From: Tetmemena sp. SeJ-2015
Taxonomy: Eukaryota > Ciliophora > Spirotrichea > Sporadotrichida > Oxytrichidae
Assembly: GCA_027382625.1 (NCBI GenBank)
Contig: JAJKFJ010020904.1
Location: 343,111 to 407,110 of the forward strand
Direction of reading: 5' to 3'
Length of the DNA: 64,000 nucleotides
This document shows, piece by piece, positions 31,544 through 59,000 of this stretch. The position numbers and the translations under genes were made by a program. The notes below the pieces were generated by a model that saw only the letters and a list, made by a program, of their open reading frames with translations, searched no databases and was not told where the DNA came from. Position 1 is the stretch's first letter. Each line of letters begins with the position of its first letter.

Positions 31544-31695
31544 ATTTTAAATTATCAATCTTTTACAAATTTCTCAATTTCTTAGAACAATCAAAGAGTC
31601 GCTGCTATTCTTATTAGCAAGTTTTGAATTAAGAAATTTAAATAAACTTAAATAAAGGGAGATTTGATTGACAGATTTTGAAAAGAAGTTAGGAA

Positions 31696-33829: not shown

Positions 33830-33980
33830 TACTTATCTCCTCTTTTTTTATCATTAATTTTATGAATTCTTGTATTTCTTAAGCCAGTTGATTTAGCTAG
33901 CATTCAAAATTGAATCTGCAAACCTACTTGAGCAAATATATTCGTTAGATATAAATTATAAAGCTTTTAACTCTCGCAAA

Positions 33981-36745
33981 ATGTAGTCATCAAAACATTC
34001 CTCAAATTAGTTGACTAGAGCAAGCAACATGCCTTTACAAAGCTCCTCAAACAAGAGATTTACTTAACTAGGGTTAAAACAAGCCCATCCTTACAGTAGC
34101 AAGTATCTGAGTAGCCTCTGTAAGCCAGATAATCCACAAATTCTCTTTCTGCCTAATCAAGCTCAAATACTTGCCTCAACATCTCAATACCCCTCAGTAA
34201 CAATCAAAATCTTGAAAACTAGGGAGTTGATCAGCAACTATAGTAAATGCTCACTTAAAGTTCTAGGCTCTCAGTCACTCCTTCTATTGCAGCTGAGGCT
34301 AAGGAAAACCTTGATCAGACTTTACTCAAATTCAAAGGAATCTATAGCAGCACTAGATTCAGTGACCAATGTTAGCAATCAGCAGACATTTAGTAGTTAT
34401 CGTCTTAAAGAGTAGTCCTCTAGAAAAAGTCTTCTCAGGTTTCTTTTAAAGACAAGGAGAATGACTTCACAGTCCCTACTATTCAAATTGGACTAGAGAT
34501 GATAACTAGTGAGCAGGAAAAGGAGATTATTGTTCAAAATAGCTCAGAAAAGAACAACGACAACAATCCCAAAGATTCTAGTGTCAAGTAAAGTGAAAGA
34601 AAGGATGAAGCCAGAAAGTTAAGAGACTTAATCCTTAAAGGAGGCCCCTTCTGCTTAAGATTAGCTTAATTTATTATAAAATTTAGTTTGAAATTAGAAA
34701 CCCAACCTTTGTAATCGTAAGGGCTCTTAACCTGATTTGGGAAATAACTCGAAGGCAGTTAAAGATAAGTAGAATCTAAGTATAGCAAACATATTTATCT
34801 ATTTATAAATAAGTAAAGAAAGGAAAAACGGAAGAACGACATAAAATAATGAGAGAAAAAGAAGTCAGAGTAGAGCTGAGAAGACATCTCACAATAAAGG
34901 AAAGGAGCTTAGATACGCTGTTCTTAGAAAAATGGCCAAAGAAAATGATAAAGCTTAAACTTAAGATGATAACTTGAGGTCTCCTGTTATAAAAAGAGAT
35001 TTGGCTTCTCCACTCAAATAAGATGATGAGAAGAGATCAAATTGCCAATAATCTCAGATTAAAATCTAGACTCAAATTTCAATTCAGTGAGAGCGAATAC
35101 TGAGAGAGGCCGGACAAAGACCAAAAATTCTGATAGCAGATCAATCTCACCTCACGATAGAATTCCAAGAGCCCTCTTGAATTTATTATTTCTCTCTTAG
35201 TCCTGAACAATAAGTGGCCTAGTCACTTTGGTGTTCCAATCACAAAAAAGCAATGAGATAAGATTCAAGATCAAAGAGTCTTCTCTTAAATATTCTCATC
35301 AAATTTTGCTATATTTAAGAGTCCTTTTAAGTTCAATGGAACTTTTGAGGAGAGAGTTATGACCTCGCAGAAGAAAAATTAGTTTGCTACTTCGAATGGC
35401 GTGCTCATCACAAGCCTGGAGATTCTTGTAGAGAATATAACATGCAAGACTAGAATTTCATTCCAGATAAATTTTAAGGATATTGAAAGTAGTTTTTTAT
35501 AAAAAGTAAGTTAGTTTAGTATAGATGAGCTTACTTAGATCTTTGAGCCAGACAATATGAGTAAGTTTTTAAATTAAGATTATTTATAAAAACAGTATTT
35601 CGCAATAGTTTTTCTAATCTTTGATTGTAGAAACCATCAACAACCTTTTTGTAAAATTCGCTCAAACCTACAGCTCAGATAAGAGATACATAATTACAAA
35701 GTTTATAAGGACTTTCTCTAGTTCTTAGATATTCTCGAAGAATCTGCGTCAATCGAAAGTAAATCTTCTGGAGAGTAATAAACTGAGAAGCTTGAGAAAT
35801 AAGAAATTATAGCAATAGATTAGGAAAATGAGAGATAAAAGAATGGATCCGAGCAACTGAATGAAGTAATAGAATTCCAAGTAGAGAACAAAGTGCCAGA
35901 TATATTTGAACTCGAAGGTTAAAAGTAATCAGACAAATTATCGAAAATCTCCAAAGCTGAGTCTGACTTGGTGTTTTTCAACCTATCAATCAATAATCAG
36001 CAAGGTAATAATCAAAGTCATTTGGTTTATCTATCTCTATAGTTGACTTTGTTCGCTTTTGTTAGATCTAGCTTAGACTAGCTTAACTACTCTTGCCTTG
36101 GGAGCTGAACCAATACATCTTGATGCAACAATACTTCTTTAAGTTTGTGACTCCCAAAGTGATTTAGTCTTAGCTGCAAACTCGAATCAACCTCGTTATT
36201 TAGGAATGCAAAGATAGAGTTGGTTTTGTAGATGGACTAGTTTTAAAAGAAATGAAGAAGGTAAAAGGTTTATTCAAGTCACTTAAAAATGCTTTATGTG
36301 AGAAGGACATGAGTAGTCAAGTATTGATGAACAGCTCAAGTAATAATCTCAATGCTTCTCTTGCATAGGCTGCAATTCCAACTATGAATACAGGAGCCTT
36401 ATCTTGTCTCGCTCAAGAGAAATTACAAATCAAGAGAGAAAATCTTCTTCAACTCTTAGTGAGGGCTAAAATCTGTCCTTACCTAATAAGCAAGACTATA
36501 TTCAATTAAATATGCAGTTGCACTGCAGTATAACCACAGATAAGCCTTAACTTAGAGGAAACAATTTGCATACTGGGAATTGTTGCAGTTCAAAAATATG
36601 ATGATGCTATTTTAGAATTTAAGTAGTTCAAGTCGATAAAGTGAACTGTGGAGAAGGAAAAGAAATCCTCAGACCTTAAATTATGAAAGCAGTCTAATCC
36701 CTATCTAAAATAGTCTCAGAATATTTGAAGTCAATTGGTCAATGA
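33981..36745 (+). CDS. Ser/Gln-rich protein, family not recognised
   Basis: The start ATG 33981 (MQSSKHSSNQLTRASNMPLQ) leads to Ser/Gln-rich sequence. A later piece (about 34430-34640) contains KDKENDFTVPTIQIGLEMIT and a charged tail. After AT-rich interruptions (34660-36050) a helical C-terminal region is clear: DRVGFVDGLVLKEMKKVKGL (about 36205-36265), NLNASLAQAAIPTMNTGALS (about 36350), LLQLLVRAKICPYLISKTIF (about 36450), and a last MDS ending SKIVSEYLKSIGQ at TGA 36745. The C-terminal helices could be a protein-interaction domain. I do not recognise it. Confidence 0.5.
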
Positions 36746-36967
36746 AGAATAAATGTTTATTAAGCTCTATATTCTCTTGCTTTATTCAATTTAACCCATC
36801 TAAAAGAGGATAATCACATAAATTTAAGCTTATTTAAGAAAATATTAGCTGTGTCTATTTTTAATCGTGTCAACAAAAGTTTCTCTAAATTAAGCATCTA
36901 TTATTCTTCAAGTTAATATAGAGTTTGCGATAAATCTATCACAAAGTTTTCTTTGAGCCTTAAATCC

Positions 36968-39284
36968 TCAATATGTGCCGTCATTTTTGTTTGCATAATA
37001 GGATTCCTCACACACTATGAGCTAATGAATCAAGTTAACAAATTTCATTTTCTTGGGTCCCAACATACCCTCCAGCTCGTCGTTATCAGTTTCATCATCC
37101 GCTGACAAATTCTAAATAAAAGTGTTAGTTATTGTTGATCAAGATAAAATTTAATTGTGAGCTGCAAGCATTTTTAATTTATTTGGTAACCAGAAGTTTT
37201 GAAATAGCTTAGATTATTCTGTTCTTAATTATTTATCCTGGTATTCTGATTAAAAGTTAAACTTACCACAAGATGCTTATATGCGGCTATGAAAGGAATA
37301 TCTCCGAGTTGCCTCTCTAGATGCACTCTAAGGGCTTCAATTCTGTAGCCAAGAGGATCATTCACGGAGAGTTGAATGCCCGGAATGTTTTTCAAGAATT
37401 AAGGAATGGCAGGCTGATCTTCTTCAAATCCAACGCCATCTTCTTCGTCTGAACTATCCTGCTATCTCACTTATTGCTGCTGCTGGCGGCGTCCGTTTTC
37501 GCCACTAGCCGCACTAATTCACTAATCTAGCTTATATAATTTAAAAAGGGCCAATTTTAAAAGTGATTACCCCAACGCGCTGGCCAACCTTATTTTCTTC
37601 TTTGGCGGATGACTTGCCTCCCGAAACAAAATTATTCTGTTAAGGATGCTATTGGTATCCTCTTTTAAACAATAAGGATAATTAAAATTATCCCAACTTC
37701 ATAGCGTTGCCAGAGGAGCTCACGATGCTCTAATCTTGTGAGACATTTTGGATGTTTGGATTGGGTCTGAGTTGCCTGATTGCAGGGATCTTTTCCTTGG
37801 GGTTTGAGATATCAAAGTTGCTTGAATCCTAAACAGAGAGTTTAATTAATAAACTCTGCTCTCTATATATTGACTCTCTTAATTATTGAGCCTTATAAGT
37901 TTAGATTGTAGAATGATTACTCTTACTCCCTCCACGTCGCTGACCTCTGATTCTTTATTTTCCTCATCCTATAAAAAGTTCAGATAAGTCTTTCCAATCA
38001 GATTTTAGCAATAAGTATTTCTAAATCGTCTCTTACCTTTGAGAAGGACATATGCTTCTTGATGAAGGTGTCGGAGAACTCGTTCTTTGCTATTGTGCTG
38101 GTCAGAAGTTTTGAAATACGTCTGCTCAGGAACTCCTTCTCTAGAATCTTTCTCATAGAGGGGCGTTTCTGTGGGTCCTTAATTAGCATATCAGCCAATA
38201 AGTCCTTCAAATCTACTTAAATTAGGATATAAATTGCAAATAATGTAATCTTAAGAGTAAGTAGGGGGAATAGCGGGATAGGAACCTCTTAAAATTTTGA
38301 GAACTAGGCCCTTCATAGAGCTGGCATCGAAAGCATGCTTCAGAGTTACCATCTCGTACAAAATGCAACCAAGAGACCAGATAAACTTTAAAGTTACAAG
38401 TTACAGGAATGTATTCGTTAGCTATAGTTTATCTGACTTCTAGTTGTATGGCTTCTCTTGACAGATCTCAGGGGAGAGATAGTAAGGCGTTCCGATAGCA
38501 GTTTAAGCACAGTCATAGGTGTGCTGAAGAACTCTAGCAATACCGAAATCTCCAATTTTGATCTAGTTTGTCTGTGTCATGAATATATTCTGAGTCTTGA
38601 GATCTCTGTGCAGAATTTTACGATCGTGGATGTGCTTAATTGCCAAAGCCATTTACACAAACCAATCCAAGATCTAGTCCTCAGAGTACATAACTGAAAA
38701 AAGTTGAGTTATTCAATCGATATTTTATGAAGAAGAGAAAGATTTTTAATTTTTTGGGACAGTTTAGAGAATTCCCCATAGAATAAATTAAGGAGAGTTT
38801 ACCTTTTCCTATTTTCTTTTAGTTAGCTATCTTAGTGTAGAGATCTCCACCGTCAGCGTAGTCCATGACTATGCATAAGCATTTCTTATCCATAAAAGAC
38901 TCCTTGTAGGTGATAATATAGGGGTGTCTCATTGATTTTAGCACATGCACCTATCGCAAAGTTGTAAATTAAGAATATTTACTGAAAATAGTCAAGACTT
39001 ACCTCGTTGATGGCATCTTCTCTTTGTTTCTTGTCCATTCTTGAAACATCAATAATCTACAAACTAATAAGAACTTCCTCGGTAATCATAAGTTTCAATA
39101 ATACCAGCTGCATTTAGCCTTGCAGCAGATTAAACGTAGAAAGAAATATAAGGCACTTAAAAAACGGAGAAGTTTTTAAACATACCTTCATGACATATGT
39201 TAGACGGTCGATGACTGATTGAACAAGGACAGCATATCCGAAACTTCCCTTTCCAATGACTTTGAGTTTTCTATATTTTTCCAT
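36968..39284 (-). CDS. NEK (NIMA-related) protein kinase
   Basis: The start ATG 39284 gives [20 protein letters not shown] (Gly-loop) and YVMKV (Lys). Further motifs are [48 protein letters not shown] (catalytic loop), [11 protein letters not shown] (DFG), the activation/P+1 segment [29 protein letters not shown], and [20 protein letters not shown]. The YYLSPE and ADGGDL signatures are typical of NEKs, which ciliates use for cilia length, basal body and cell-cycle control. Several GTAAG...AG introns and AT-rich interruptions separate the pieces. The non-catalytic tail (37900-36968) contains acidic and Gln-rich parts and a helical piece [20 protein letters not shown], ending NDGTY before TGA 36968. 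Confidence 0.85.
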
Positions 39285-39698
39285 TTGGTACGATCGATTC
39301 TTAGAGAGTCAACTACCCTTTTTATTACTATAAGTTTAAATATAACTATTTGAATTCTTATCCTTTTCTTAATTCAAAAACAAATCCATTACCTTTAATA
39401 TCCAAGATTAATATTTATAGCAATCTTTCTTATCAAAATATAATTGCATTTTGTTTATATAAACTATATTTTCCTTATTAATAAATCTATTTCAGTTATA
39501 AAGATTTAAGGTACAATATTAATCTTAATAGAGTGTAAATATACTCTCGATCAGAACAAATAAAATTATTTTTAGAATTGCCTGCATGATCTGATATCTT
39601 GAGTTGATTTATTTTTGATAATAATTTAGCTTTACATTTTAGTAATATTAATTGATGGTTTATAGTTAATAAAATTAGTAGTATATTTTAAATTTAGA

Positions 39699-40377
39699 AT
39701 GAATAGATACACAATATTCCAGTCACTTAATAGTTCTTTGTAAGTTCCACCTAACAATCGAAATATTACTTTTTAAGTCATTTTCTATCTATGTTTAAAA
39801 GTTAGAGCAGGTTTTAAATTGTCATTTTAGAATTGTGAGTGTGTCTTCGAGAAGAGGTTTCTGTTAAAATCCAGTACCCCTGAAAGAAAATTAGTCTGCT
39901 AACAAGAGTTAATCTAAGATCGATGAAGGCACTAAAGAGAATAATTATGAATCATGAGCTGCTAAGGATTCCTTAATTTAAAATATGGCTAATTATGTAA
40001 TAAATTTTAATAACATCAATTATTTCACATTTATTTAAGATTCCAATCTCAACTAAAGTGACAATCTCTAATACATGCACCAAGACCTAAATAGCTATTA
40101 TTCACACAGATAAATTTTCATTTCTCAGAGTGGAGTGTCTTCTAAGCAGAAAGTGTAAACCACTCAAGAGAACCAAGGCCTAGAGCAAAACGATTTAGAT
40201 GGCTAGATTGACTATAAGACATTCACCAAAGAGAACTACCAGAATCTAACCAAAATATAATTTATCCTTAATTCAACATATTAAATAGTAGGCAACCCAA
40301 AGCCAGATGCAAAAGGAAAATTTGAACAAAAGTAGTCTGATAAATAGCAAAATACTTCAAATAAAAGTTAATCTTGA
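39699..40377 (+). CDS. Small possible gene inside an amylase IES of unit A
   Basis: ATG 39699 opens MNRYTIFQSLNSSL, then reaches a GTAAGT-like site. A second piece (about 40030-40260) encodes DSNLNQSDNLQYMHQDLNSY and EQNDLDGQIDYKTFTKENYQ with in-frame TAA/TAG as Gln, to TGA 40375-40377. The two pieces are separated by AT-rich sequence, and a Ser/Lys-rich piece near 39840-39960 may belong as well. It lies on the opposite strand between the last two amylase MDSs (39609 and 40565). The equivalent gap in unit B (47232-47873) shows no such coding. It may be a nested gene or a partial set of MDSs. Confidence 0.35.
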
Positions 40378-40979
40378 AGTTGGTAGTACTTTCTAGTAGA
40401 ACTATTTCAAAGATCACACTTAAAATGCACTTAGAATCGAACTTACAATTAAAAAGATTCTTCCTATTTCTTAAATACTTAATCAATTCTATAAATTTAA
40501 AAAGAAGTTTAAAATTAAATTTAAAATTTAAACAAAAATTAATTTTTGTACCAATTATTTATGAGAGTTGATTTGCTCTTCAGTTAATTGTTAAGCTGAG
40601 TTTAATTGCTTAACATACACCTTAGGATTGCGATAATAAATTTACATCTTTTATCTCAATCCACTTCAATACAGTCAATTAAAATAATACTTTGGCTAAA
40701 TTATATAAATCCAACATTAATTCTCTCTATTTAAAATATTTAACTTACATTTTAGATAGTATTTTGTTTTGGGTCCCATTCTGAAAATGTTTATAATTGT
40801 ATTTAAATGAAAACTAATTGCACAATCTATCTCCTATTTGAAAAGGATGGTCCTCTAAAGAAACTTTCAAATACTTTTGCTCTAAGATATTAGTCAGAGT
40901 AACAAGTATAGTATCGGATTTGCTAAAAATCCAATATCATCTCATGTTATAAAAAGAAGAATAATTGAAATAACTCTTT

Positions 40980-43900
40980 GTCTACCCCGAGACTGCTGCT
41001 GAGGACGTTATCTACAACGACCACGGCAATAATAATTCAAATGCCTTTAAAGTATTTTCGAATATAAATAACATTTAAATGAGTCTTACGGTATTCAGCT
41101 GTGGTCATACGCCAAGTACAACTAACCCTATTAAGTTAATATCTATTATTATCATTTTATTTAATTAAAGTTTATTATTATACTAATTATAATTTATTCT
41201 GCTCCCTATATTCAACACGTTATGTGGGACAAGTTGATTATATGATAAGAAATGCTCGACTACGCTGTTACCGCCTCAGAGACTATATTTTAATTTTGCC
41301 AAATATTTTTATTTTGATATGTTAATTTCCTTTTTTCTTGATTTGTTATTATATAGTAAATTTAAGGTTAACTATTTTTAATTAGATAATTATGATTTTT
41401 ATCTCTATTTTGAGTTAAAACTTATTTAATGAGACCGCTGCCACCGTTCAAAGATCCTTCTTCTAAATTAAAAATAGAATAAATCAAAATGACTTATTAA
41501 GAATTATGATTTAATTTTGAGGAGCATTAAGATATCTGTGATTAACCTAATTATAATATAAATCTTATTCTCGCATACAAACAAATGACAATATATAAAA
41601 TATTCAATGTAAATATAAAATTTAACAATAATCTAAAAACTATTTACTTCTTTAAAGAATATCCTAATGTTTCAATACAAGTTTGACTAATAAAATAATT
41701 TAGATTGAAATATCTAATCATTTTTTGTTGCATATATCATAATTGAGTGTCAGTGAAAAGACTATACGCTATTAACGCAAGTGGAATAGACTTATAAAAT
41801 AAACTTGAAAATCTAGCTTACTTTATTGTTACTGTTCTTACTAATCATTGATTTGTGTATACTTATATTTTCATAAATAACTGATATGGCATTCGCATAA
41901 ATTGTTGTCACTTATATATCATAACTTATTATAATTTAATTGAAATAAGCTTCAATAAATTGTTTTATCCAACTACTTCAAAAGATTTAATTTTATTTTT
42001 TATCAGTAAAAGATTTAAAAGCATTTTTTTACAAAATTTTAATTTCTTCTTTTTTAAAATAATTGGTAAAAAAGATTATCTAACAAAAAAAACTTGATTG
42101 GATTTCTTATTATAAAAACCTAAGAAATTAATATCTCTTAAAGAGAGGAGAATTTAAATTATTTCAATTTTTGTCATATTTAAAAAAAAATATTATGAAA
42201 ATTTTTAATTAATGAAATGAGTTTGTCATCATCGCACCTGGTAAATGGCAGAAAGAGGAATAAATTATTTTATAAATTATATTACTTATGATAACGGCAT
42301 CAAGATTTAGCACTTCGCTAGTATTCTAAAAATAATAAAAAAATAACAACTTTTTTATTGTTGTATATTCAATTAAAATTTTCAATTGATTGTTTACTAT
42401 AATTTATAAATAGCGAAATTAGCAATATTATGTATCCAATGTGACAAAATCTGATCACAGAATGGAGTCCTACTACTTTACTTATAAAATATTATTTTAA
42501 TTATATTTATTGAGTCATTACTTTTTAATTTTTTTATTACTCATTCAAATTTTATCTCAATTAAATAGGGGACATTTTTGTTACTTAAAGTACAACATGC
42601 AAATGGACTACTTCGGATGGTACAGTCTTAAATCTTTTTTTTTAAATTAAAATAAAAAAAATTAATATTTTATTATGATAAAGAACTTTTTTAAATGAAT
42701 TTAAATTTTTAATTTTTTTTAATATTTAAATAAAAAATTTTGTTAAAAATATTAAAAGTTCTAAGCTTCTTTTTGAAATTATTAAACAAAAAGCTAAAAA
42801 TAGCTAAATAAAATATTAAATATATTAATTTTATAATCTAATTTTAAGGTTTGAGTGCCACCGTCGATATATAGCCCATCTACGCTGCTCCGATACTTAA
42901 ATACAACAATATTTAAATCATTATTTTATACTTATTAACACTATATTTTTTTAAAAAAAATAAACTCTAAAATAGAGTTTCAAGATGCGATATCTATTAT
43001 ATTTCTTTGCTATCATTTAAGAAATATTTATGTTTTAACTACTTAAATAAAAGAATGGATAATCATATAAACTTAAATTTTTAAACCTTAAATATTATAC
43101 AGTATCTATATCTCAGTTAGCAGATAATTTTGCAATCATACACTTCTTTTTTGCTTGATGAATATAATAAATAATTATTTTTAAATTTATAACTCTAGGT
43201 TTAATCTGAAATAGAGAGTATTTAAAGTTTGAATTAGCTAAATATTTTATGTTACTTAGTTGTTGATTATATGGCTTCACTCTCTCCGTAGCCGGTACCA
43301 GAGAGATCGAAATGCTCTTAAAAATGATTTGACAATTTATAAATAGGTAGTCTTATTGCAAATATTTTATAATTACTCATATTTAAAATTAGAGATCCTT
43401 CTTCCAGGATAAGGCCTTCGACATGAAGGAAATCCAAGACGCTTTTTATATTTTCTTGTTCTTCCTCGTTTCTATTATGTATTTTGATGTGTGCTGCATA
43501 CTCTCTTTGTATTTATTTGAATACTATTAGTTTTAAGATACAGCAATAAGAATTCATAAGGGGAGCAAATAGATTAAATTTAAAAACTATAGACTAAGTG
43601 TGATGTTCGGAATAGAATAGCGATTTAATGTTTAACAGCCAAAAGATGACTTTTTTAAGACTAATGAGATCGGTTTAGATTATTCGCAAATAAAGCAAAT
43701 TTATTTACAATAATAGGTATTTATTACAATTTAGCAATAAGGTTTGAGAAAAGTCAAATGATAAATGTTAAGAGGATGCCAGAGCACACATCCTTTCATA
43801 GTTAAGAGGTTTCATAAAGATGAGATCACTTGATGAGCACGGTGCTGTAGTATTCGTGGTCTCCGCGGATTTCTTCCAAACCGGTAACCTTGAGGACGTC

Positions 43901-45409
43901 GAGAAGGTTGCCACTGTATCTGGTATCAACCCACTCGTTTATTTATAAAAGCTATTATTCATAAACTACAATATAATACATATCTTCTACTATATCAAGG
44001 GGTACTTTTAATATAGTATTTTATTTAAAGTAAGAGTACAAAATAAATTAAGCCAATAATCCTCCTTAAGAAATAAAATTTTTCTCTCTAAGAGTTTATG
44101 AAATTCAAATTAAGAAAGTAGCACTGTGAATACTTGATTACTAAAAATGAGTGTATTCTGAGAAATATCATTAAAAATATGGCAATTTTGTTAATTAATA
44201 CCTAAATTAATACTTTATAAACTAGTAAGATGTGATGGAAAACGCTCTCTAATCTAAATTAATAAAAAATCTTATTTGTTTCTCTATTATATTTTGTGGA
44301 TAATTTTAAGAGGAACTTATTTTTAGATTAAAATGCAATTAGAGGAAATATTTATAAAAGATTAATTGATTATCGTTCTCGAAGTTATCTTCGTAGTTGG
44401 CGTGGAAGCCGTCTTGAATTTGTTATCATGTTTTTAAACATTATTAAATATAAATATAGAAAATATAATAACTTTTTATATTTTTAATTTAAAAATAAGT
44501 AAATTTGCCTTTTTAATAGCTAGAATTATATGATCTTTAACTTTTATAAAAGGAATAAAAAACTAACTTACTTCATTTACTCATAAATTCCAATATTTTT
44601 TAAAGGAAAAACTTAAAATATAGAAGATTGTCACTGATAGATTTTCTAAGATAATTAGATTGAGAAATGCCTGCATCATAAATGAATTGTAATATTTTGA
44701 AATATAATAACCATGGGATGTTTCTACTTAGAGATTCTTGATTTGATATGAGAAAAAATTAGCTTTAAATATTTTAATTATTTTATTCTTACATAGGATA
44801 ATAATAACTGATTTCTCTAAACTAGAAAGTGCTGATTTTTTGAAATTGATTATTTATTATATTCCTAAAATTTTACTTTACTTTAATTATTTTATATTTA
44901 TTACATTTAATAATGCGGATTATCATGACTCTTGATGTGAAGCCATCCTTAGCCTCGAATCTGTCCCAAATAAGTTTCTATGTTGTAGATGGGCTCAATC
45001 AAAAACAAAAATTAAATCTAATAAATAATTCATAAATATAAGAGTGAAGGTAGGTCTCGACTGTGGATCCAAATCTTAATTTTAAATTATAAATCTTATT
45101 AATCTAGTATCAGAGTCAGTGTTAGTGGGGGTGGTGACTGTGTTGGAGATTGCACCCTGATAGAGGGTACCGAAGCCTGCATCAGCAATAGCGAACAAAG
45201 TATAATAAATGATGCAATAAGTTAAAGTTTGGAATATGTTTTATTTTAATTCTGGTAAATTATATTTGAATATAAAGGTCTTGTTATCTTAAGTTAGTGG
45301 TAGACGAAGAGGGCCTTGTTGGCGCCTCTTTCTAAATTACAATGAAGGTGCGGGGAACCATGGCGGTGCTGAGTCCGAGGAGGGCGATGAGGGTAGCGAG
45401 CTTGATCAT
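40980..45409. CDS. Scrambled gene, copy A: 21 MDSs on both strands, secreted protein of about 238 aa
   Basis: I do not recognise the family. MDSs in protein order (- means inverted): 1 45346-45409(-), 2 42234-42258, 3 45299-45333(-), 4 40980-41027, 5 44374-44412(-), 6 41088-41122, 7 42293-42320, 8 45109-45195(-), 9 42450-42473, 10 42591-42626, 11 42849-42867, 12 45035-45061(-), 13 44985-44999(-), 14 42873-42891, 15 41199-41231, 16 44937-44968(-), 17 43271-43317, 18 41249-41283, 19 41431-41463, 20 43393-43439, 21 43826-43936(-). Pointers include GCACCT, AGAAAGAGG, GTCTACC, ACGGC, TTCGCTA, AGCCCATCTAC, CTGCTCC, TGGGACA, ATGGCTTCAC, GAAATGCTC, GAGAC and AGATCCTTCTTC; the shortest are GT and GA. 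The joined length is 717 nt (239 codons, no internal TGA). The N-terminus [16 protein letters not shown] is a signal peptide; the protein ends HEYYSTVLIK. Copy B aligns codon for codon with mostly synonymous or conservative changes, which fixes strand and frame. Confidence 0.85.
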
Positions 45410-46394
45410 TTGTCATAAAATTCACAGTTGCAGATATCTTAATACACACAGGATCCAACCGTAGTAACTAAAATATTTTTAAAACTTTCAGAAGTCCTTG
45501 ATTCTATACCTTTTATTAAATATCACAAGTGATTAATATCTCTTTTAGACAAATATAGAAAGAATTATATTTAAAATTATAAATATTATTTAATGTATAA
45601 CTTTATTATTTTATCATAAATATTATTTAATGTATTAACTTTATTATTTTATCACTATAATTATGTAATCTTTAATGTAAGAAATATGCTTCTATAAGCT
45701 AGTTAATTGTAAATAAATTGCTTATTTCTATTCAAATATGAATTAAAGATTTCATTTATAAATTGTTCAATAAAGCTGAATCTAATACGACTATAATTCA
45801 AACTTATTGTCAAAACTAATTTTTATAAAATGCATTTCTTATAAAAATAAGTTTACAATATGAATTATTAATGTTATCTATTACAGAAAAGTCTTCTGAA
45901 TGTGGGATCTGAAGGATATATTTTTTAAAAATTGGAGAAGAAAGAAAAAAATGAGAAAGGTATTTAAAGAGTGATATTTCAATTATCTTTTATTTAACAA
46001 TTTAGATAGATTTTATAGCACCAAGGCGAGCTATAGCAATTATATTTAATTTAAAATAATTTCTTATTAAAATAGAAATAGCAAGAATTTGAGTAAAGGA
46101 AAGCATAAGAGAACTAAAAGTAAGGAAAAGTGAACTAGCAAGATACCAATTTAAAGAGTGGAAGTAAAAAATAATACACAGAATCTAAATGCTAGAAACG
46201 TAGGCAACTCAAAACCATATATAAACGTTTATTTCCTAATTACCAATTATGCATAATTTTATATAATACCTGTTATTTTAGTTGTCTAAATTCATAATAG
46301 CAATACATTTTATGATTAAATTGATGATCTTATGATTGCTCTTAATCTAATATATAAGGAGAGTCTTTTATCTTTTAATGATTTCAAAAATTTT
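45410..46394. other. AT-rich filler between nested gene A and the amylase pointer
   Basis: No coding piece is supported here. It corresponds to 56720-57607 of unit B only loosely, with conserved patches directly upstream of the signal-peptide MDS (GATATCTTAATACACAC and GGATCCAACCGTAGTAAC-type sequence at about 45431-45470 and 56750-56790). These may be promoter or 5' leader of the nested gene. Confidence 0.45.
45425..45475 (-). promoter_or_regulatory. Conserved block upstream of the nested gene, copy A
   Basis: The block containing GCAGATATCTTAATACACAC and GGATCCAACCGTAGTAACTA is almost identical in copy B (56745-56795), although most flanking IES sequence has diverged. Its place just 5' of the signal-peptide MDS suggests 5' leader, promoter or part of the macronuclear chromosome end. 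Confidence 0.5.
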
Positions 46395-46789
46395 ATTTGC
46401 TAAAAATCAAAAGCCCTTTTGCATTATCAACCAATCTAAAATCGGGTTCAAGATCATAAATAGAGTGTTTCGTGCGGACTTCATTCTTAAAATTTTAATA
46501 ATATAATCATTTAGTGTTTTAATAGTGCTAATTATGGTTTGATGAGCAGAATCAGAGTACTGAGATCAAATCTCCAAAATTTCCTCTCTGAAATAAGAAT
46601 CTTTCTCTTAGAGTGGAGATTGAATTAAGGTAGACCTCCCAGTTTGAATTTTTAAACACTTCTTAATTACCACTCAGCTGCAAATTAAAATTTATAAATT
46701 TGTCTCTCTGGATTATAAAAAATTATCAATCTTCGTCCCTTATCCTTTACCACTTATAGTAATACTCCTTTAGTTTTTTTTAATTCTAT

Positions 46790-47092
46790 AAAAGCAAATC
46801 TAATAAGTTAAAGTTTATCTCAAAATAGAACAAATAATCATTTTAAAAAATGTCCTTTGGAATCCTTCCTAATAAAAACCACAAAATTAAATAAGAACCT
46901 AACCTTCCTAGAAGACTCTAAATTGCCTGTTTAAGGTTAAAATTTTCATAATTAAAAGTATTAATAAAGAAATTAATTATACACAACTTATTATTATTTC
47001 TTATCTTATTATGAGGTTTTGAATGTCTAATATTAATATTTACCTTAATATCAAAAATAACAAATTATATAAAATAAAATTGATATAAATTA
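46790..47092. other. Junction between duplicated units A and B
   Basis: AT-rich sequence with no coding support. Unit A amylase homology ends near 46780 and unit B homology (last amylase MDS) begins at 47093, so the duplication breakpoint lies here. Confidence 0.5.
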
Positions 47093-50000
47093 TCATTCCC
47101 TCTTTGGTAAATCTATTTCCGTGGAAAAGATTTAAGTCACGATATTTGTTAAACCAGAGAAGTAAATAATATTTGCGAGAAGAATGAACAAAATTATGAT
47201 TAGAACTGTCTGTATGAACTAATATCTTGAGTTTATATATTTTAGCTGTACTATTTTTTGTGGATAAAAATCATTATATTAACTTTTAAATTAAAAAATG
47301 TAATTAGTTCAATGAACGATAAATTCTCTTTTAAAAGTATTCAAAAAGACATTTTGATATCGATTATATGTAATTTAACCTTAAGCAAAAAATAACTAAA
47401 AATATATATTAACTTCGTATCTGTGTATGTTTCTAAGATGCTTTTAATTTCTAACTCTCCAAAACTTTCTATTAAAATCACTGAAGTAGATTGTCAGCTA
47501 AATAAACTATTCGTAAACCGATAATAGAATAAAAGAAAATAGTTCTTAATTATGAGTAATCAAAGCATTGAAATATGCTATTAGAGGTTAAATATGGTAA
47601 ATTTCATTTCTATAAAAGAGATGCACTTAATATTGTGATCTTTACTAAGATGATAATCTTTTATTCATTAGGATAAATTTAAGTATCATACACATTTAAT
47701 TAAAGGCAGTAACATATGAGTATATTAAAACTTAAAGCCAAACTTCTTCACTGTACTAATGAAAATAAGCAATTCTTATAATCAAAAATTCAATTTGCTT
47801 CAATTTCATTATCTAAGATGCTTATTAAATTTAAATTTTACTTAAATTGAAATTTCAGAATTTTAATTTAGAGAGTTGATTTGCTCTTCAGTTAATTGCT
47901 AAGCTTTGTTTAATTGCTTAGCATACACTTTAGGATTGCTATAATAAATTTATATCTTTTATCTCCATCCACTTCAATGCAGTTATTAAAATAATACTTT
48001 GGCCAAACTATTTAAATTTAACATTAATTCTATCTATATAATATTTAATATTCTAAATTTTAGATAGTATTTTGTTTTGAGTCCCATTCTGAAAATATTT
48101 ATATTAAAAGAAAACTAGTTGCACAATCTATCTCCTATTTGAAAAGGATGATCCTCTAAAGAAACTTTCAAATACTTTTGCTCTATGTTATTAGTAAGAG
48201 CAACAAGTATAGTATCGGATTTGCTAAAAATATAAAATCTAGCTCTTATTAATATCCAAATTTATAATAAGTTATCTACCCCGATTCTCCGGTTGATGGA
48301 ATTCTCTACGTTGACAACGGCAATAATTATACTAAAATATGTTAAATGTTTTTGTTTAAGTAATTTTAGGATGGAAGCGTACTCTCCTCCTTTTGTATTA
48401 AAATTCTTTTTTATTGCCCAATAAGGTTAAAATATGCTTACAAGTTAAGTGAGCGAGCTTTTTATATTTAGGTCTAAATTTAAGGTTTTAAATTTAAGAG
48501 ATATGATATATTGTTTTTATATAAGTAAAAAATTAAACTTAATAAGTTCATGATTGGAGTTTTATTTCTTTTCGCTCATTTCCAAGTCACATTATAAAAA
48601 CTATTTTCAGTGTTAATATAAAAGAAGTGCCTGTTTATATAATACCCTGAAAAGTTTAAGAATATATTTTAATTAAATTGAGATTCTTCTTCCTTAAAAA
48701 TATCAGATCTAATAGTGAGTTTTATTTTTAATGTTTTTAAAGATTATCTTTAAGCTCGCATTAAAGATTCAATACTTTTGTATAAAAAATAATCTAAAAT
48801 TTGACGTTTTAGTTTCTTCTTTAAATAATATTATTTGTTTGAACTTGCATTAGATTTTTAAGAGAACTTAAAATTATATCAGATTTAAAAAAGATAATTA
48901 TAATTTAAAAATTAATTGGCATTCTCTTTCACTAAATTGTGTTTAAGTTAAACTTAGTATCAATTTTTACGACATGACAGAAGATTTATTAAAATACAAT
49001 TTAATTGACAAAATCTCATAATATTTAGGCATTTTAATAAAAAGAGTGTCCCCCAAAATTTACATAAACATAAGTCCTATGGTATTCAGCTCTGGTCATA
49101 CGCCAAGCACAACTACTTCGTCATTTAAAATAAATAACAAGTTTACTTTATAATCAATTTAATTTTAAACATTCCAGTTATGAATATGTTCTGCTCCCTA
49201 CATCTAACATGTTATGTGGGACAAGTTGATTATATTATAAGTTAGAAGAAATGCTCGATTACGCTGTGACCACCAAGGAGAACTAACTTTAATTCTTAAG
49301 TTCATAATTTTGCATTATGCATGCTTATTTTGTGGAAATATGATTTTTATATTTTCCTTAGAATTTTTTTTAATTGGATTAAAAATTATGAGAACGTTGC
49401 CACCGGTCAAAGATCTTTCTTCCTTTTAATTAATATAATTTAATTAAGCATAATTTTATGATAATATTATTATTTTAGAGGAGTATTAAGATATCTGTGA
49501 TAAGGTTAATTATAATATAAATATCTGCCTCTTGCATACAAACAAATGATTTATTTAGGAACCCTTATATAATTTTTTAAAAACTCTTTATCCAAAAAAT
49601 GAGGAAAAAAAACATACGTAATTCATTATAGAATAATTTCATATATTAAATTTCTTTATCAGAAACAATTAATCTCTATTTTTTATTAATTTTGCTTATA
49701 AAATATAACTGCATATTTTTTCTCTTTAAAAGTGTTAATCTTAGTATTTGGATACAATACATTTATACGAATTAGAAAATTTGACTTTTAGTTGATTAAT
49801 TCTTATAAATATTGCTGTTGTTGCTATCTTATAATGAGAATTTAACGCTAAATTTAGAGCAAAGATTGTATTAAAGTTCACAAATTCCAAACATTGCTCT
49901 ATATCAGAACAATGTAAAAATTATTATTTTGTATTTTGCGATCTTCATTTTTATTTATTTATAAAGGTTTTTCGCCACTATTTTTTAATGAAAAGATTTT

Positions 50001-53000
50001 TATAACTTTTATAATTTATAAAGGAGAATTAATTTATTACAAAAGATTTAACCTGTAAAAATAAGAATTCCATACTAAGAAGAAAATCTTAAAGAAATTT
50101 AAATTTTATTTAAGGAGGGAGAAATTAGTTTTATTAAAAAATATAAACAATATTTATTAAATGAATAAAAAAGATTGTCAACGCACCTGGACTATGGAAG
50201 ACAGAGCAATCAATAAATCTAAAGGCAACAATAATTTAAGGAGAAAACGGCATTGTTATTACTCACTTCGCTAATATAGAAAAAAATAAATTAAAAACGG
50301 TGATTGGTTAAAATAATGAATGGGGAGTTGCAATTTTGTGTCAGTTGAAATCGCAGATTCACCCCATAATCTGCAGATTGTTCGATATCTTATCAAAATC
50401 ATTGCCTCAGCAACTCTCAGCTGCAAAATATGATGCACCCAAATTCCTCTACTCCAAATGCAAACCTTATAAATCTTGTGTCGCTTATAACTTTGCATTG
50501 AGAGCTCCCACATAAAAGTTGCAAGAATTGAAAGTTCTTAAAATTTGATGCTGGATTGAATGGTCTAATAATTATTTAAATTGGACACACTTTAACTGAT
50601 TTATTCCAAATATCTAATTTATTTCTCTTTTTATTAGACTCTCAGCTATATTATACGTTAAGCCCTGATTTTTAAAACTTTTGAGTTTGCTCCAGTAAAG
50701 CCTAGAGGAACGAGGACGAAGCTCTTTTCATCTGTGTTTAAACTTGGTAATGAAAGTACATCCTTGTAGGCCAAGTATAGCTAAAAAATTAAAAGAAGGT
50801 ATTTTACAGATAAATTAAATCCCAAAATTATATGGAACGTTCTTGATAAAACAGCCAATTTTATATGTTTTTTAAGAAACTTCTCTAAAGTTCAGTAAAA
50901 AGACCAAAAGCAGTGGCTTCTATAGTAAAGACTGGCTTTCTAGCCAGTAGTGAAAAATAGGAGCTGAAAGGATAATATTATAAAATTAAAGTTAAAAATA
51001 AACATAAATTAAAAATATTTATTCATGCCTTCCTTTTTTGTTTTCTGCTTAATATAAACTGACTAAATATACTACCTCAAATTCAAAATAGGTGAAGAGG
51101 TTAACTATTAATTTTCTCAATAATAAAAGCCAGTTAGGTAGTTTTCATTGCTATATCTTAAACATTAAAGTACTTATTTCTTAATTGTATTAGTGATTTG
51201 AATAATGTTTTCTTTGAAGTATAATTTATGAGTAAATAATATTTAATCATTTATGCTTTAATTAGAGATTCATCCTGGTAATTATTTATAATTCACTCAA
51301 ATAGTTTATATAACTTTAAATCTTTATATTAGTAATTAGTTATAAATAGATCTTTATAGATTAATAGGAATTTTTCCATTATAATTATCTATTTTCTCAT
51401 CTTTTATTACGCACACCTTCCTTTGAAACCGCTTGCTGCCAATTATTCATTAATCTATATTTAGCAAAACTTAAACTAAAGATTCATAATATAGTTTCTG
51501 GAAAGCTCTTAGGATTTAAAACTAAAACATATCCTAAGGGTTTATGAAACTTAGAATAGTATTTATGCATTTTATTTCTTTTAAATGCTTACATTCTAAT
51601 TCTAAAAACAGAATTTGGTAAATTAAATATTTCTTTTTAAAAACTTTATATTAATTTTAATAGATCATCAAATTAATATTTATTGTATATTTTAGAATAT
51701 GCAAATTCAGATGCCAGAATGGAGTCCTATAACTTATTTTATGAATATAATTACATTTTTAGTTAATTTATTATTTCTATAATTTATCAATTTAAAATTA
51801 TAATAAAAATTAATGTTTATTAAATAAAGGGAATATTTTTGACTTATTGTACAGCACAACTTACTTATGGACTTCTTCGGATTATACAGTCATAAACCTC
51901 TTAATTCCTTAAATAAAAATTATTAATGTTATTTTATTATAAACGAATAATTCCATTCTTTTATCTCAAATATTTAATAAATAATTTCAAACAGAAAATA
52001 GAAAGAACTTATTATCATAATAAGGCTTGGAGATGGATCAATAGGCTAGAGCCAAGACTGACTTCATTTCATTAGTAGTATTATCAATGCACAATTTTTA
52101 GGGTAAGCAATAATCAAAGTGCACCATAACAAATCTAGAAATACCTTAGAGGGGTTATTGCTCATGAGAATCAATTTAAAGCTAAGAATTTATTCAGAAT
52201 GACACAGTTTTTATTATACCTCTGTAGTCCGGGTCTTACAGAACGAGACTAAACTTATTTTTAAATATTGGGGCTATAATCTAAAATGATTTTTATCTTA
52301 TAGAGAAGGGAAGAACCATTAAATTCAGCTGTCATTTTTGCAATCACCCGAAATATTATTTTTTGGGGGGGGGCCTTTCCTCGTCATCCATTTTTTTAAA
52401 AAAATAAAAAATCATCTTTACCAAAATCACCAAAAACGACAATTCATTAGTCTAAATTCAAACCAAACAGTCTAACCTACTCATTTCTTAAATTTAAAGG
52501 GGATTATCTTAAAGATTTAGCAGGTAAAAACAGAAAAATTAATCTTTATACAACATTTAAAAAAAAACAAAATATATTTTTTTTTAAAGAGTTTTAAAAA
52601 AAAAATCCCTAACAAAAAATAGTAAGATGAAAAATTTTTTAAGTAATTAGGCTTTAATGCATGCTCTAGAATAAGAAGAGAATCCAAATTTATTAAAAAT
52701 TTAAATATCTATGATAATTTTAAATTTATTAAGCATTTAATTTATTTAAATTATCTTTCATTTGTTAAAATTAATTTTTAAAAATAAAATAAAATTTCTT
52801 TCTAGGCTCTTCAAATTCTCTAAATATAAGAATATGAGTAGCTTAGACTCTTTGGATTTAAATTTGGACGAAAGAATTTCGTTGGCTGATTTTAGGCTAG
52901 ATGATGATTTTTCATTTTTTCATGAAAAAAGTGGATGACGAGAAAGGCCCCCCCCTATATTTTTTTAACCTTAATTTTTATATTAATTTAATTGGTAAAT

Positions 53001-56000
53001 CTCTAAACAATTTTTAATATCTAATTTAATTATATTTAAATATAAATAATTTTTTTTTAAATATTATTTAGGTTTGAGGGTCACAGTCGATTATAAAGCC
53101 CATCTACGCTGCTCCCATACTTAAATATCACAATATTTAAAATCTATAATTATAAATATTTATTCCAAATAATATAATTTTTAATTGGATCTCAGATTTT
53201 TCATAATTAGAAAACGAAAATATAATAAATTCTCATTATATATTTAAGGATTACTTGCTAAATTTTAATTATTGCGACTCCAAAATTAAAATGCTCACAA
53301 AATAAATTGAAAAAAAATTAATTAGAAAAGAGATTATACTTTTTTGTTCATAAAGCATAAATTAATTAATTTTTATAAATAATAAAGAGATGTATTAATA
53401 TATTTTTATCTTGACTCAATTCATTCTTTTAAGTTTACGACAATAAAAAATAAAATTAATAATTATACACACATCTTAATTAAAAGTAGATTATTTAAAA
53501 TCTTAAAAAAATTAGTATGTAACTTAGTTGATTTAAAGGCTTCACGCTGACTCTATCCGGTACCAGAGAGGTCGAACTGCTCTAAATTGAATTTATAATT
53601 TCTTTATTAATATAGATTTTATTAAATCACTAAAAGAAAACAATGCAAAAATCAAAGAATAATTCACAAATACTTTATATTAATTCAACTGTCACACGAT
53701 TTTCTCAACGCAATAAATTAAGAATTAGAGATTTCCAAAATTTTTTCTTATTTACTTAAGATCAATTTATTTTAATAGGCATTAGTCTTTCAATATGATT
53801 GAAAAGTTGTCATTTTCATATTGTAAGCTATAGACCTTGGAGATAGTTTGAAAATTATTTAGGCAATTTCTGTATGCTCCAATAATACTTCCTGCTAATT
53901 ACTTTTCTAATCGAGATTTCAATTCAAACTGGTGACCTAAGCCCATCCACCCTCTCACTCACCGATTTCTAGCTCCTCTTTTTACCGCTCCTTCATTTGT
54001 ATAGTTTCAGACTTTTGAATGCCTTCACAATAGAGACCAACTCACATGGTACATCGAATCAGGTCACCAGTTTGAATTGAAATCTCGATTAGAAAAGTAA
54101 TTAGCAGGAACTATTATTGGAGCATACAGAAATTGCCTAAATAATTTTCAAACTATCTCCAAGGTCTATAGCTATGCCTATCAAAATAAATTGATCTTAA
54201 GTAAATAAGAATAAATTTTGGAAATCTTTAATTCTTAATTTATTGTGTTGAAAAAAATCGTGTGAACCTTTAATTAAATATAGTATTTTTAAATTATTCG
54301 TTGATTTTTGTAATATTATATTTATAAAAGGCAATAACTTTTAAAGATTTTAAAAAATTAATAATTAATTTGGAACTAATGAGTAACCCCCTACGAGGGC
54401 ATAATTAAACAATTCTTAAACTAAAAAAACTCTGGGAAATCGTGTCAACTCATGGATTCACAAATAGTGGCGCCTCATTTTTCCATTGAGGAGAAGGAAT
54501 GTGATGAGTTGAATCATATTAACTTCCTTCCAAGCAACATCTCAGATCTCCTGCTGACTGGATATAGATTAAGACATCTGTTGTTGTTGGCTAGTCTGAG
54601 AGTCGGTAAATTAAATAAGTCTCCTGGCAGGTCAGGGAGTCCATACCTTCAGATGATGTAGTTAAAAATAATGTCAGTGGACTATCCTTAAATACACGAA
54701 TTGCTTCAGGATCACCATAATCATTGCCATCTTCTATTAAACACTCTAAACTGCTAACTGACTAATACTAAACTATATCGCATATAAGGAGACAAAAACC
54801 TAGAAAGAGGATGGAGTATGGCCGGCTACCCGAATAAAGCTCAATTTGGAACTATGTGACTGATCTTAAATTTCAATTTTCTATTTATCTATCTAAAACT
54901 ATTTAATTTGAATTAGAAAAAAGAGATCTTTCTTCCAGGAAAAGGCCTTCGATGTGGATGGCATTGTAAACGGTCTTTATTTTATACTTTCCTTTATTAT
55001 TAAATAGTTTTGAGTATTTGCATTAAGAAATTATATGGGAAAATATATTGATTATTAAAAAAAATATTGAGTAAGTGTGTGGTTACTTTTCGGGAGAGAT
55101 TAGTGATTATAGATTTAAAAGTTAATATTTAATAAAGTATATTGGGAGAGAGTTTAGATTATTCATAAATTAAAAAGAAGTTGCGACTAATGAAGTAAGT
55201 ATTTCATTTTTCTTTTTAGCAATAAGTTTTAAAAAGGTAATTCCATAAACTGTAGTAGAATAACAAATCACGGATTCTACTAATTTTTGGTGAAATATTT
55301 TTATAGTAAAAAATCATTTTTTTCCTCAATTAAGAACTTTTTGGTGATCACTGGATGAGTGTTTGAGTGTAGTATTCGTGAGTTCCACGGATCTCGTCCA
55401 AAGAGTCAACGTTGAGAAGGTCCAGAAGGTTTCCCTGATATCTCATATCCTTCCACTGGTTCATTTATTACTATTTGTATTTTATATCAAATTTTATATA
55501 TTAATTTCCTTACTCTATTTAACTAGGCTAATATGTATTTTACCTCTTTAATTGATGTTCAAAAGTAATTTTAGTATACAAATTAATAATAATCTTGAAA
55601 TTAAATTGAACTTAATTTGAGGTGATTTAAATTATTTAGATCAGTATTAAGCAGTTACAAGACTTAATTCTAGAATGAAAAGAGTAAATCAAAAGTTTTA
55701 ATTAGCAAACACTATGAGAAGATTAGCCAGATATTTAAAGAATAAATAAAGGCCTATAAAATAATAAAAATGCTCTCTGGATTAATTTAAAAACAAATTT
55801 AAACAAATTAATATAGCCTTAAGAAAATTTATATTACTAAAACATATAGCATGATTAAAATATTTTTAGTTCTTGAAGTTGTCATCGTATTTGGCGAAAA
55901 GACCGTATTGATTTTCTTATTTAAAATAAACTAATAATTGCAAGAAAATAAAATTGCTACTTCCATTTTAGTGAGTTCATTGAGTTTATAACGATTTATA

Positions 56001-59000
56001 TTCTATTTGCTACTTAAATAGCAAACAACAGCAAATTTTTCCCTTTTCAATTTAAATTAATAACTTTTTTAATTTTATGCGCTGTGGATTTAAGGTTTAA
56101 TTATTTTTGATTAGAATTATATATTATGAAAATATTAAACATAATACATCATACTTAATTTATCATTCCCCTAATTTTTTATGTCAGATTATTCATATCT
56201 GTAAGAAATTCTTATTTAAATTATCCTGATTGTAGATATTTTTAGCTTGAAGCCATCATCAGACTCGAATCTGTCCCATTAATTTAGGTAGATGGGCTCA
56301 ATTAAAACAAAAAACCTATTTGTTTGTAATTCTAAAATTTAAGAGTGAAAGTAGGATTCGACTGTGGATTATTCTAAAATATAAAAGATAAATTTCTTTA
56401 ATTTTTTTCTGGCATCAGAATTGACAATTTCTGGTCCTTGTATTGGGTCCTTAACTTGGCCCTGATAAAGGGTACCGAACCCAATATCAGCCTTAGCGAA
56501 CAACTCTTAAATCATTTTCCTCCATTAAATATAATTAAATTAATTTAATAAGAAGTTTATAAGTGTATATTTGGTATCTTAAATTAGTTTAGGGGTAGAT
56601 GAAGAGAGCTCTTTAGGTGTTGGCGTCTCTATCTTAATTATTATTCAGGTGCGGGGAACCATGGGAGTTGTGGCAGTGCTGAGTCCGAGGAGGGCGATGA
56701 GGGTAGCGAGCTTGAGCATTTGTTATAATATTGACTATACATGTTTGCAGATATCTTAATACACACGGGATCCAACCGTAGTAACTAAAATATTATCTCG
56801 ATAAGTCAAGGATTATATGCTATAATCACAAGCGAGTTTATATCTCCAAAATATTGATAAATAATTTGTTAAATATCTTTTCAATTAATTTTTAAAATTT
56901 AACATATTTATTTTAAAGGTAAATTTGAATAAAAAAATCATTGTTTTAATTAAATGAATATAGTGAGATGTTATCTGATGTAACTAAATATAAATCCTTA
57001 TTGCAAAAATAAAAACAAAATATTTTCTTATTATAAATGCTAATTATTATAGCAATAAGAAATATCAATTTTAAATGAGAAATTTAAATCTACCCAAAAA
57101 ATAGTTTCACGGAAATAAATTTGCCCAATCGAGGAAAAAGAAAAAATATAATTTTAAAAATTTAATATAAATTATGGAGAAGCCCAGTCAGGGTTTCAAA
57201 GAGCGAAGCTTGAATAATCATAAGCTTCAACACATTAAGTAGAAAATAAGTATACGATTTTATTTATAGCCTATAAAAAGAATTAAAATCAATGTCGGAA
57301 TTAGAGGAGAATTCTAATCAAGATAAGAGATTAAGGAAAATAGTTGTATAAATAAATAAAATAAAATAAATTAACTTTAAAATTTTAAATAATGCATTAA
57401 ATATAGGCATCTCCTAATCATAAATATATGTTTATTAATTTGAAGACTAGTCTTTAATTATTAAAATAGTAAAGTGCTTTCTTTCTTATATATGCCAGTT
57501 TATTAGTTAATAAAAGTGTATTTGCTTATTATAAGATGTGATATAGGATTGCTCTCGATAAGAATTATTGAGAGTCTTTTATCTTATTGATGATTACAAA
57601 AAATTTTATTTGCTAAAAATCAAAAGCCCTTTTGCATTATCAATCAATCTAAAATCGGGTTCAAGATCATAAGTAGAGTGTTTCGTGCGGACTTCATTCT
57701 TAAAACTTTAAGGAAAATATAATCATTTAGTGCTTTAATAGTGCTAATTATGGTTTGATGAGCAGAATCAGAGTTAATAAAATATGTTTTAAAAGTACTT
57801 AAGCTCCATATTGAAGATATCGAAAGGTTCTCTGTTGTTAGGGTCTTGACCTCCATTAAAAAGTCCATCAGTTCCATAGTAAAGTATGGGAATACCATAG
57901 CTCATAAATGTGTAAGTCAAAGAATTCAAAAGAAGAGCGATGTCTTCACTTTCAGCCCATCGATCACTAGTCACTAGCTAGTTTATAAGATCTAATTTGG
58001 AGGAATCCTAAGTATTTTAAGCTTAAGATCTATCTCTACTTTGTACGGCTTCTCTTTGCTCTTTGAGAAGATGCAGAAACCTTTTCTAGTCGTGATTATC
58101 AAAAAATACTCCAAGAGAACTCAAATCTCCAAAGCTACTTCTATGAGCTAAGTAGCTTTCTCTTAGAGCGGAGATTGGAGCTGCTTGTCTAAAATCTATC
58201 TTGCCAAAGACGTTTCCTAGAGTGTAGTATAGTGGATAGTCAAGCATGGAATTAAGGCCTCCTTTTGAAATATAGCTTGCCTAGATTACAACATTTTCAC
58301 TTGTAACCTCTCCAAGGGTAAAGGTGTTTAGCGGACTGAGTACAACAGATAGTTCTCTCCAGAATCTTTGATTTATATGTCTTACTGTATCGATTCTTAT
58401 CCCATCGAACCCGTATTTCTTAAGCATGTGATTTTCAATCCAATCAAATAGAAGTTTCTTCACCTCTTCAGATTCTGTATTTAAATCCGGTAGTCCACAC
58501 AGTCTGCATTTTTCAAGTACTTCTTGATTGCCTCCCATTGCCCAATCTAAATATATCAACTTAATCACTTTGGATTATAAATTATTAATCTTCGTCCCTG
58601 ATTTCGCACCACTCATGGTAATGTCTACTCTCGCTATTTCTAAATTATTAATAAAACCAACCTAATTAGTTTAACCTTATTCCTTTATAAAAGGAGTAAT
58701 GCCTTCAAATTAAGTGCCCATTGGAACGTATCCCACATGGTTGAAAACTACATCCACCATTACAGCAATATCTCTCTTGCGTGCCTCCTTCATAAACTAT
58801 TTTAAGTCTTCTTCAGAGCCAAAGTTTGAATTCAGTGTATAAAAATTCTTAGTCCAGTATCCGTGATAGCCTAAGTCTATATTCTCAACAATTGGGGAAA
58901 TGTAGATTGCTGAAAATCCCAGAGATTAGATATAAGGCAGCAGCTGAATCAAATCTTAATAAGTGCCTCCACAATACTCTTTCAATCATAATACAATAAT

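Follow-up and report, generated by a model that had tools for sequence, protein, structure and literature searches.

How can one continuous protein-coding gene be recovered from 21 short pieces that lie out of order and partly inverted, and by what route does such an arrangement come about? Both questions are posed by two neighboring loci in a window of 64,000 nucleotides (the whole stretch of DNA analyzed here; contig JAJKFJ010020904.1 of Tetmemena sp. SeJ-2015, contig positions 343111-407110, in an assembly of 146 Mb and 5213 contigs). The coding macronuclear-destined segments (MDSs) of copy A span positions 40980-45409 of the window and those of copy B 48274-56719, as read directly and as already given in a preliminary description of the sequence, whose 21 coding blocks per copy, with an order and orientation common to both, are equally borne out. 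Full reading frames, relatives, and alignments give good support to the view that the two are paralogous scrambled genes for one kind of protein. We regard it as highly probable that A and B are a genuine pair of scrambled germline genes with the segment map as corrected below; the segments, pointers, order, open frames, conservation, and a ratio of nonsynonymous to synonymous substitution rates (dN/dS) below 1 are established from the sequence.

In germline order, A and B alike read 4 8 14 17 18 2 5 7 9 10 13 16 19 on the plus strand (13 segments), followed by 21 20 15 12 11 6 3 1 inverted on the minus strand (8 segments). Each copy has 20 coding pointers of 2-13 base pairs (bp), and a matching repeat is found at all 20 junctions in both. 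The assembled products, 232 amino acids (aa) for A and 237 aa for B, are free of internal TGA and close on TGA, as had been claimed; the claimed length of 239 codons gives way to these values. The segments are dense and short (21 coding segments in 0.7 kb, with a median of 33-34 nucleotides (nt) and a minimum of 14 nt), and their GC fraction of 0.49-0.52 stands against 0.19-0.23 in the internal eliminated sequences (IESs), as the AT-rich DNA between segments may be called if, as we suppose, it is removed. TAA and TAG serve as sense codons, exemplified by ATC TAA CAT in B where A reads ATT CAA CAC. Because this codon usage, with TGA as stop, occurs together with C4A4 telomere-type repeats and such a germline architecture, the evidence points to the germline of a spirotrich ciliate. 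A C4A4 telomere-type 20-mer has 67 exact matches in the assembly, many overlapping on one contig and nine at contig bases 1-20; the reversed-pattern control for this count is void, as the pattern reads the same backwards.

The preliminary description had left out two segments per copy that probably belong to the 5' untranslated region (UTR). One is a leader upstream of MDS 1, 47 bp long in A, and the other lies between MDS 18 and MDS 2; both are presumably UTR parts of one somatic chromosome with the coding MDSs. In the list that follows, A' is the version of A on contig C4340, and former numbers are those of the preliminary description (5 becomes 20, 6 becomes 8, 7 becomes 5, 8 becomes 6, 9 becomes 7, and 10-20 are each lowered by one).

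Copy A:
45431-45477, minus: leader, probable 5'-UTR, 5'-most segment identified; near-identical in A, A', and B; shares ATTAAGATATCTG with the second UTR segment
41526-41588, plus: probable second 5'-UTR segment; conserved in A, A', and B; shares ATTAAGATATCTG with the leader and ACAAATGA with MDS 1
45346-45409, minus: MDS 1, start codon and hydrophobic protein start
42233-42258, plus: MDS 2; pointers CGCACCT and AAAGAGG
45299-45331, minus: MDS 3
40980-41028, plus: MDS 4; pointers GTCTACC and ACGGCA
42294-42320, plus: MDS 5 (formerly 7)
45109-45195, minus: MDS 6 (formerly 8)
42450-42469, plus: MDS 7 (formerly 9)
41081-41122, plus: MDS 8 (formerly 6, misplaced); put here by homologs P0001-P0003
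42588-42626, plus: MDS 9 (formerly 10)
42854-42867, plus: MDS 10 (formerly 11), 14 nt
45047-45061, minus: MDS 11 (formerly 12), 15 nt
44985-44998, minus: MDS 12 (formerly 13), 14 nt
42873-42891, plus: MDS 13 (formerly 14)
41199-41231, plus: MDS 14 (formerly 15)
44937-44968, minus: MDS 15 (formerly 16)
43271-43317, plus: MDS 16 (formerly 17)
41250-41283, plus: MDS 17 (formerly 18)
41431-41463, plus: MDS 18 (formerly 19)
43393-43441, plus: MDS 19 (formerly 20)
44373-44416, minus: MDS 20 (formerly 5, misplaced); put here by homologs and pointers
43826-43939, minus: MDS 21, TGA stop

Copy B:
56748-56794, minus: leader, probable 5'-UTR; near-identical to the A leader
49483-49548, plus: probable second 5'-UTR segment; shares GTATTAAGATATCTG with the leader and AACAAATG with MDS 1
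56646-56719, minus: MDS 1
50182-50206, plus: MDS 2
56592-56630, minus: MDS 3
48274-48322, plus: MDS 4
50246-50274, plus: MDS 5
56407-56500, minus: MDS 6
51710-51730, plus: MDS 7
49073-49114, plus: MDS 8
51853-51889, plus: MDS 9
53077-53090, plus: MDS 10
56348-56366, minus: MDS 11
56288-56301, minus: MDS 12
53097-53116, plus: MDS 13
49191-49223, plus: MDS 14
56248-56278, minus: MDS 15
53538-53582, plus: MDS 16
49252-49283, plus: MDS 17
49390-49423, plus: MDS 18
54924-54978, plus: MDS 19
55869-55906, minus: MDS 20
55348-55462, minus: MDS 21, TGA stop

The order was reached through relatives. A draft of copy A, joined roughly in the preliminary order (252 aa, with joins chosen by the analyst and not exactly those giving 239 codons), served as query, and the protein sequences of the relatives exposed two misplaced blocks. 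With these moved, a pointer stands at each of the 20 junctions and the frame closes. Most of the preliminary order thus holds; its blocks 5 and 6 are relocated by pointers and homologs. In copy A, MDS 20 bridges 19 and 21 through pointers CAAGACG and AACGA, MDS 8 bridges 7 and 9 through GAGTC and AAGTACAAC, and MDS 4 connects straight to MDS 5 through ACGGCA. The blocks of copy B were recognized by their likeness to those of A, and B's own sequence was then used to join them in that order. In global alignments, corrected A outscores the draft against all seven relatives tried (four metagenome proteins and three collinear paralogs), for example by 610 to 472 against P0001, and the preliminary order is accordingly rejected. 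The summed length of words shared at the joins is reached by none of 100,000 random orders in either copy, with end zones set when the joins were already known. Pointer positions in A and B overlap at all 20 junctions (rotated pairings average 6.8, with a maximum of 13), and at 17 of the 20 the extent of the pointer is not the same in both copies.

A third version of the gene adds to this picture. Contig C4340 is collinear with window positions 31018-46859 at 94-97% and carries all 21 MDSs in the same order; because of this collinearity, A' is most simply taken as an allele of A, from the other haplotype. Between A and A', the MDSs differ by 16 substitutions in 835 nt (1.9%) without any indel, and the IESs by 96 substitutions in 3501 nt (2.7%) with 23 indel events. 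Alignment of A with B gives identity at 152 of 232 residues, with a dS of 0.48, a dN of 0.24, and a dN/dS of 0.50; by these measures the loci behave like genes under moderate constraint. Two differences between the alleles are observations in their own right. Just past the stop (A 43819-43825; C4340 near 12868-12900), A' is longer by about 40 bases, flanked by the direct repeat TCTCATC; these bases resemble an IES confined to one haplotype. At the MDS 3/4 junction, the pointer is GTCTACC in A, and the matching ends in A' are TCTACC plus the following bases, a case of pointer sliding within one species.

Several points weigh against the map and the genes it describes. Only in 8 of 20 rows for A and 7 of 20 for B does the true partner stand alone as the best match (by columns, 7 of 20 and 10 of 20), so that pointers alone are insufficient to fix the order; homology fixes it. 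Junctions 9/10 and 11/12 are held by 2-3 bp only, in both copies. The allelic substitution rates of MDSs and IESs are close, and the 16 MDS changes are confined to four of the 21 MDSs (1, 3, 6, and 21), so that the clearer sign of constraint is the absence of indels in MDSs. Finally, a contiguous, joined version of A was not found in the assembly searched. The order itself is supported by a joined query of 143 nt (MDS 10-17), which matches A and A' only piecewise, over 27-47 nt, with pieces that stop at MDS borders, at the query end, or at most 5 nt past a border; against the collinear paralog C2471, the same query gives an unbroken match of 91 nt at 76%.

The missing somatic version, together with a constraint that is only moderate, would also suit decayed or shuffled pseudogene fragments, produced for example by repeated transposon-driven duplications and yielding no somatic product. 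We consider this very improbable, given that two divergent copies and an allele retain 20 junctions, full frames, and start and stop, that indels spare the allelic MDSs and not the IESs, and that amino-acid identity between A and B persists at the level given above. Misassembly of the segments of a collinear gene, in favor of which no evidence was found, is hardly credible, since the same order recurs in two paralogous loci of one contig and in the separate contig C4340.

On the reading of A and B as scrambled genes, they would be two apparently functional micronuclear loci, tandem paralogs scrambled in the same way. As the somatic nucleus develops, the 21 coding segments of each and two or more segments of the 5'-UTR would be excised, eight coding segments and the leader would be inverted, and joining at the 20 coding pointers and two UTR pointers would give one gene for a probably secreted protein. 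Guidance of such joining by RNA templates belongs to general ciliate knowledge. Established ciliate biology would lead one to expect RNA-template-guided joining, telomere addition, and a somatic nanochromosome here as well. The pointers suggest by their shortness that they cannot specify the order alone, which agrees with the idea of further information guiding assembly. Sections 8 and 12 of PMC9797194 treat guidance of joining by RNA templates.

The hydrophobic start of the product is a putative signal peptide and, because of it, a secreted or surface protein is most likely. Some 215 residues follow, with the conserved stretches WSYA, EPxYxAPYIQ, and RYxGNL. The preliminary description had placed the protein in no known family, and this stands for Pfam and the PDB as searched: neither A nor P0001-P0003 has a Pfam match at the curated cut-off (B and P0004 lay outside the scan), and no PDB chain appears at E up to 1 in a five-member profile search. 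Because two AlphaFold runs gave a mean predicted local distance difference test score (pLDDT) of 31.7 and 42.6, the models are too weak for a fold search. The protein is not without relatives. Three metagenome proteins, P0001-P0003 (222-233 aa, from contigs of 1025-1264 bp), are 37-43% identical to the draft, and a second search added P0004 (221 aa, contig of 1140 bp). Among viral contigs, 18 pattern matches included no relative.

Five further loci of the family, collinear in appearance, lie in the same genome: one on C3534, three on C2471, and a more distant one on C2924. Three were reconstructed with short conventional IESs (C3534, 218 aa and three IESs; C2471c, 220 aa and two; C2471b, 224 aa and three), and the corrected products align end to end with these and with the four metagenome proteins. 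IES sites near junctions 1/2, 15/16, and 17/18 are, by eye, common to A/B and the collinear paralogs; since pointers span about a fifth of the gene, these sites may be shared by chance. The three loci on C2471 (1386-2100, 6420-7240, and 12000-12750) stand in a row in the same orientation, the first (C2471a) without a visible start segment, and are possibly a picture of the tandem array in which scrambling could begin. One genome thus offers an internal comparison among two massively scrambled copies, an allele, and five collinear-looking loci, and with it a means of studying the onset of scrambling, the sliding of pointers, and the swelling of IESs by mobile elements that leave the joins untouched.

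As to origin, the corrected order resolves into three rising tracks: a forward 4-8-14-17-18, a forward 2-5-7-9-10-13-16-19, and an inverted 1-3-6-11-12-15-20-21. The inverted track is headed by the leader, and the second forward track by the second UTR segment. Four coding junctions (9/10, 11/12, 17/18, and 20/21) are ordinary neighboring IESs; the other 16 of 20 are scrambled, and each switches track. A random order would yield no more than two rising forward runs together with no more than a single rising inverted run with a probability of about 1.3e-6 times 2.5e-5, for a grouping chosen after the pattern was seen. A hairpin-like origin, proposed in the preliminary description, lacks specific support, and the three tracks, one of them inverted, fit local duplicates at least as well. 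The gene may have been woven from three local duplicates, two in direct and one in inverted orientation, with each stretch surviving in one copy only and no copy left intact. We hold the chances of this three-copy origin to be evenly balanced, and it is much less certain than the segment map. Local duplication and decay have been tied to odd-even patterns in the part of PMC9797194 that deals with them. If the weave is true, the somatic gene switches copy at its scrambled junctions, and the steps from tandem array to three-track scramble could be traceable within one family.

Such an origin would lead one to look for relics of the replaced segments. No relic was detected in the IESs beyond the level of shuffles (Fisher p 0.997 and 0.980 for local, 0.79 and 0.88 for global comparison), in a test that compared only the two ends of IESs longer than 200 nt against shuffles keeping single-base content only; relics of skipped MDSs are thus set aside as a candidate. 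The correlation between IES length and missing length is only borderline (rho 0.52 for A, 0.50 for B, and 0.47 for the shorter of both; p 0.06-0.09, n = 14). Right-hand flanks resemble the skipped sequence no more than mismatched pairs do; left-hand flanks are, by raw means, slightly closer (4.5 vs 3.5 in A and 4.6 vs 4.0 in B, of 15). For a related case, PMC4684698 mentions that nearby traces of degenerate duplicates were not seen.

The absence of relics accords with a stepwise origin in which layers of germline translocations, in place of local duplicates, scrambled the gene, an account that we find plausible and yet somewhat doubtful. Removing nested repeat and return words leaves nothing of the pointer word, whether the UTR segments are counted or not, and such words may stem from layered translocations according to section 7 of PMC5940158. 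Against it stand the fit of all 21 coding segments to two forward runs and one inverted run, with the random odds and post hoc grouping given above, and the coincidence of very short IESs with short missing stretches (5-6 nt in place of 11 nt between 10 and 13; 14-15 nt in place of 12-13 nt between 1 and 3). Order alone cannot separate the two origins, because stepwise models too yield ordered tracks. Full reduction is reached by none of 2000 random signed orders and by 1739 of 2000 random three-track orders. As 96% of scrambled Oxytricha chromosomes reduce fully to repeat and return words according to section 11 of PMC5940158, the A/B pattern belongs, topologically, to the common class.

Whatever its beginning, the scrambled unit has since been copied and has grown. 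Because similarity between A and B extends, in pieces, across the whole unit (39394-46862 vs 47019-58726), tandem duplication of the already scrambled unit is the most likely history. In B, four of the IESs greatly exceed their counterparts in A in length. IES 9-10 of B holds a 0.6-kb element (52360-52960) with inverted ends of about 140 bp and many genome copies (99 matches listed, with 40 scored among 752 candidate places). IES 16-19 contains a long palindrome (53640-54310; inner arms 99% and outer arms 89% alike), of which no other copy was found in the genome, and IES 5-7 a dispersed repeat (50272-50598) of 75-80% identity that recurs at 9063-9413 of the window. In the fourth, IES 4-8, no element was identified. 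The joins are unaffected by this growth.

The flanks of the two units are also conserved. About 370 bp before MDS 4 (40557-40930; 47866-48231 in B) are 89% identical between units and occur only at A, A', and B; six-frame translations reveal no clear conserved reading frame by eye, and the stretch may be a terminal somatic segment. A match of 40557-40930 to DNA downstream of MDS 21 (z 5.3 vs shuffles) was rejected, as other AT-rich stretches of the window score nearly alike and the B flank does not repeat it. The sole other pair above z 2.5 among 40 pairs joins the second UTR segment of A with DNA downstream of C2471c (z 3.7). On the opposite side of the scrambled genes, 46331-46558 and 57544-57774 are conserved at about 90%, next to an open reading frame at 57768-58985 on the minus strand that may encode an alpha-amylase.

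Among the open-access papers on scrambling that were listed, no title or abstract opening names the A/B locus; the search was not aimed at the protein, and we make no claim that the locus is unreported. Its closest counterparts are the odd-even scrambled genes of Oxytricha trifallax, Tetmemena, and Euplotes woodruffi, as presented in PMC9797194 and PMC5940158, which share with A/B the MDSs, short pointers, and permuted and inverted order, along with tracks of alternating segments, multi-paralog families, and full repeat/return reduction. A and B differ from these genes in their three interleaved tracks, the third inverted, in their high density, and in having collinear relatives in the same genome. 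Section 8 of PMC9797194 describes sequence still common to the two members of many MDS-IES pairs in E. woodruffi; in A/B no such pair was detected. The duplication-and-decay model (Gao et al. 2015, as related in the same section) resembles A/B in its several paralogs, some of them local, and in rising tracks that look like complementary copy remnants, but its predicted length correlation is only borderline here and its predicted sequence similarity was not detected. Oxytricha Contig20275 and Contig5288, treated in section 11 of PMC5940158, are likewise paralogs with one scrambled pattern after a germline tandem duplication; their scrambling involves just seven of more than 130 MDSs, compared with 16 of 20 coding junctions in A/B. 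The A/B pair is thus a well-resolved new example of a known phenomenon.

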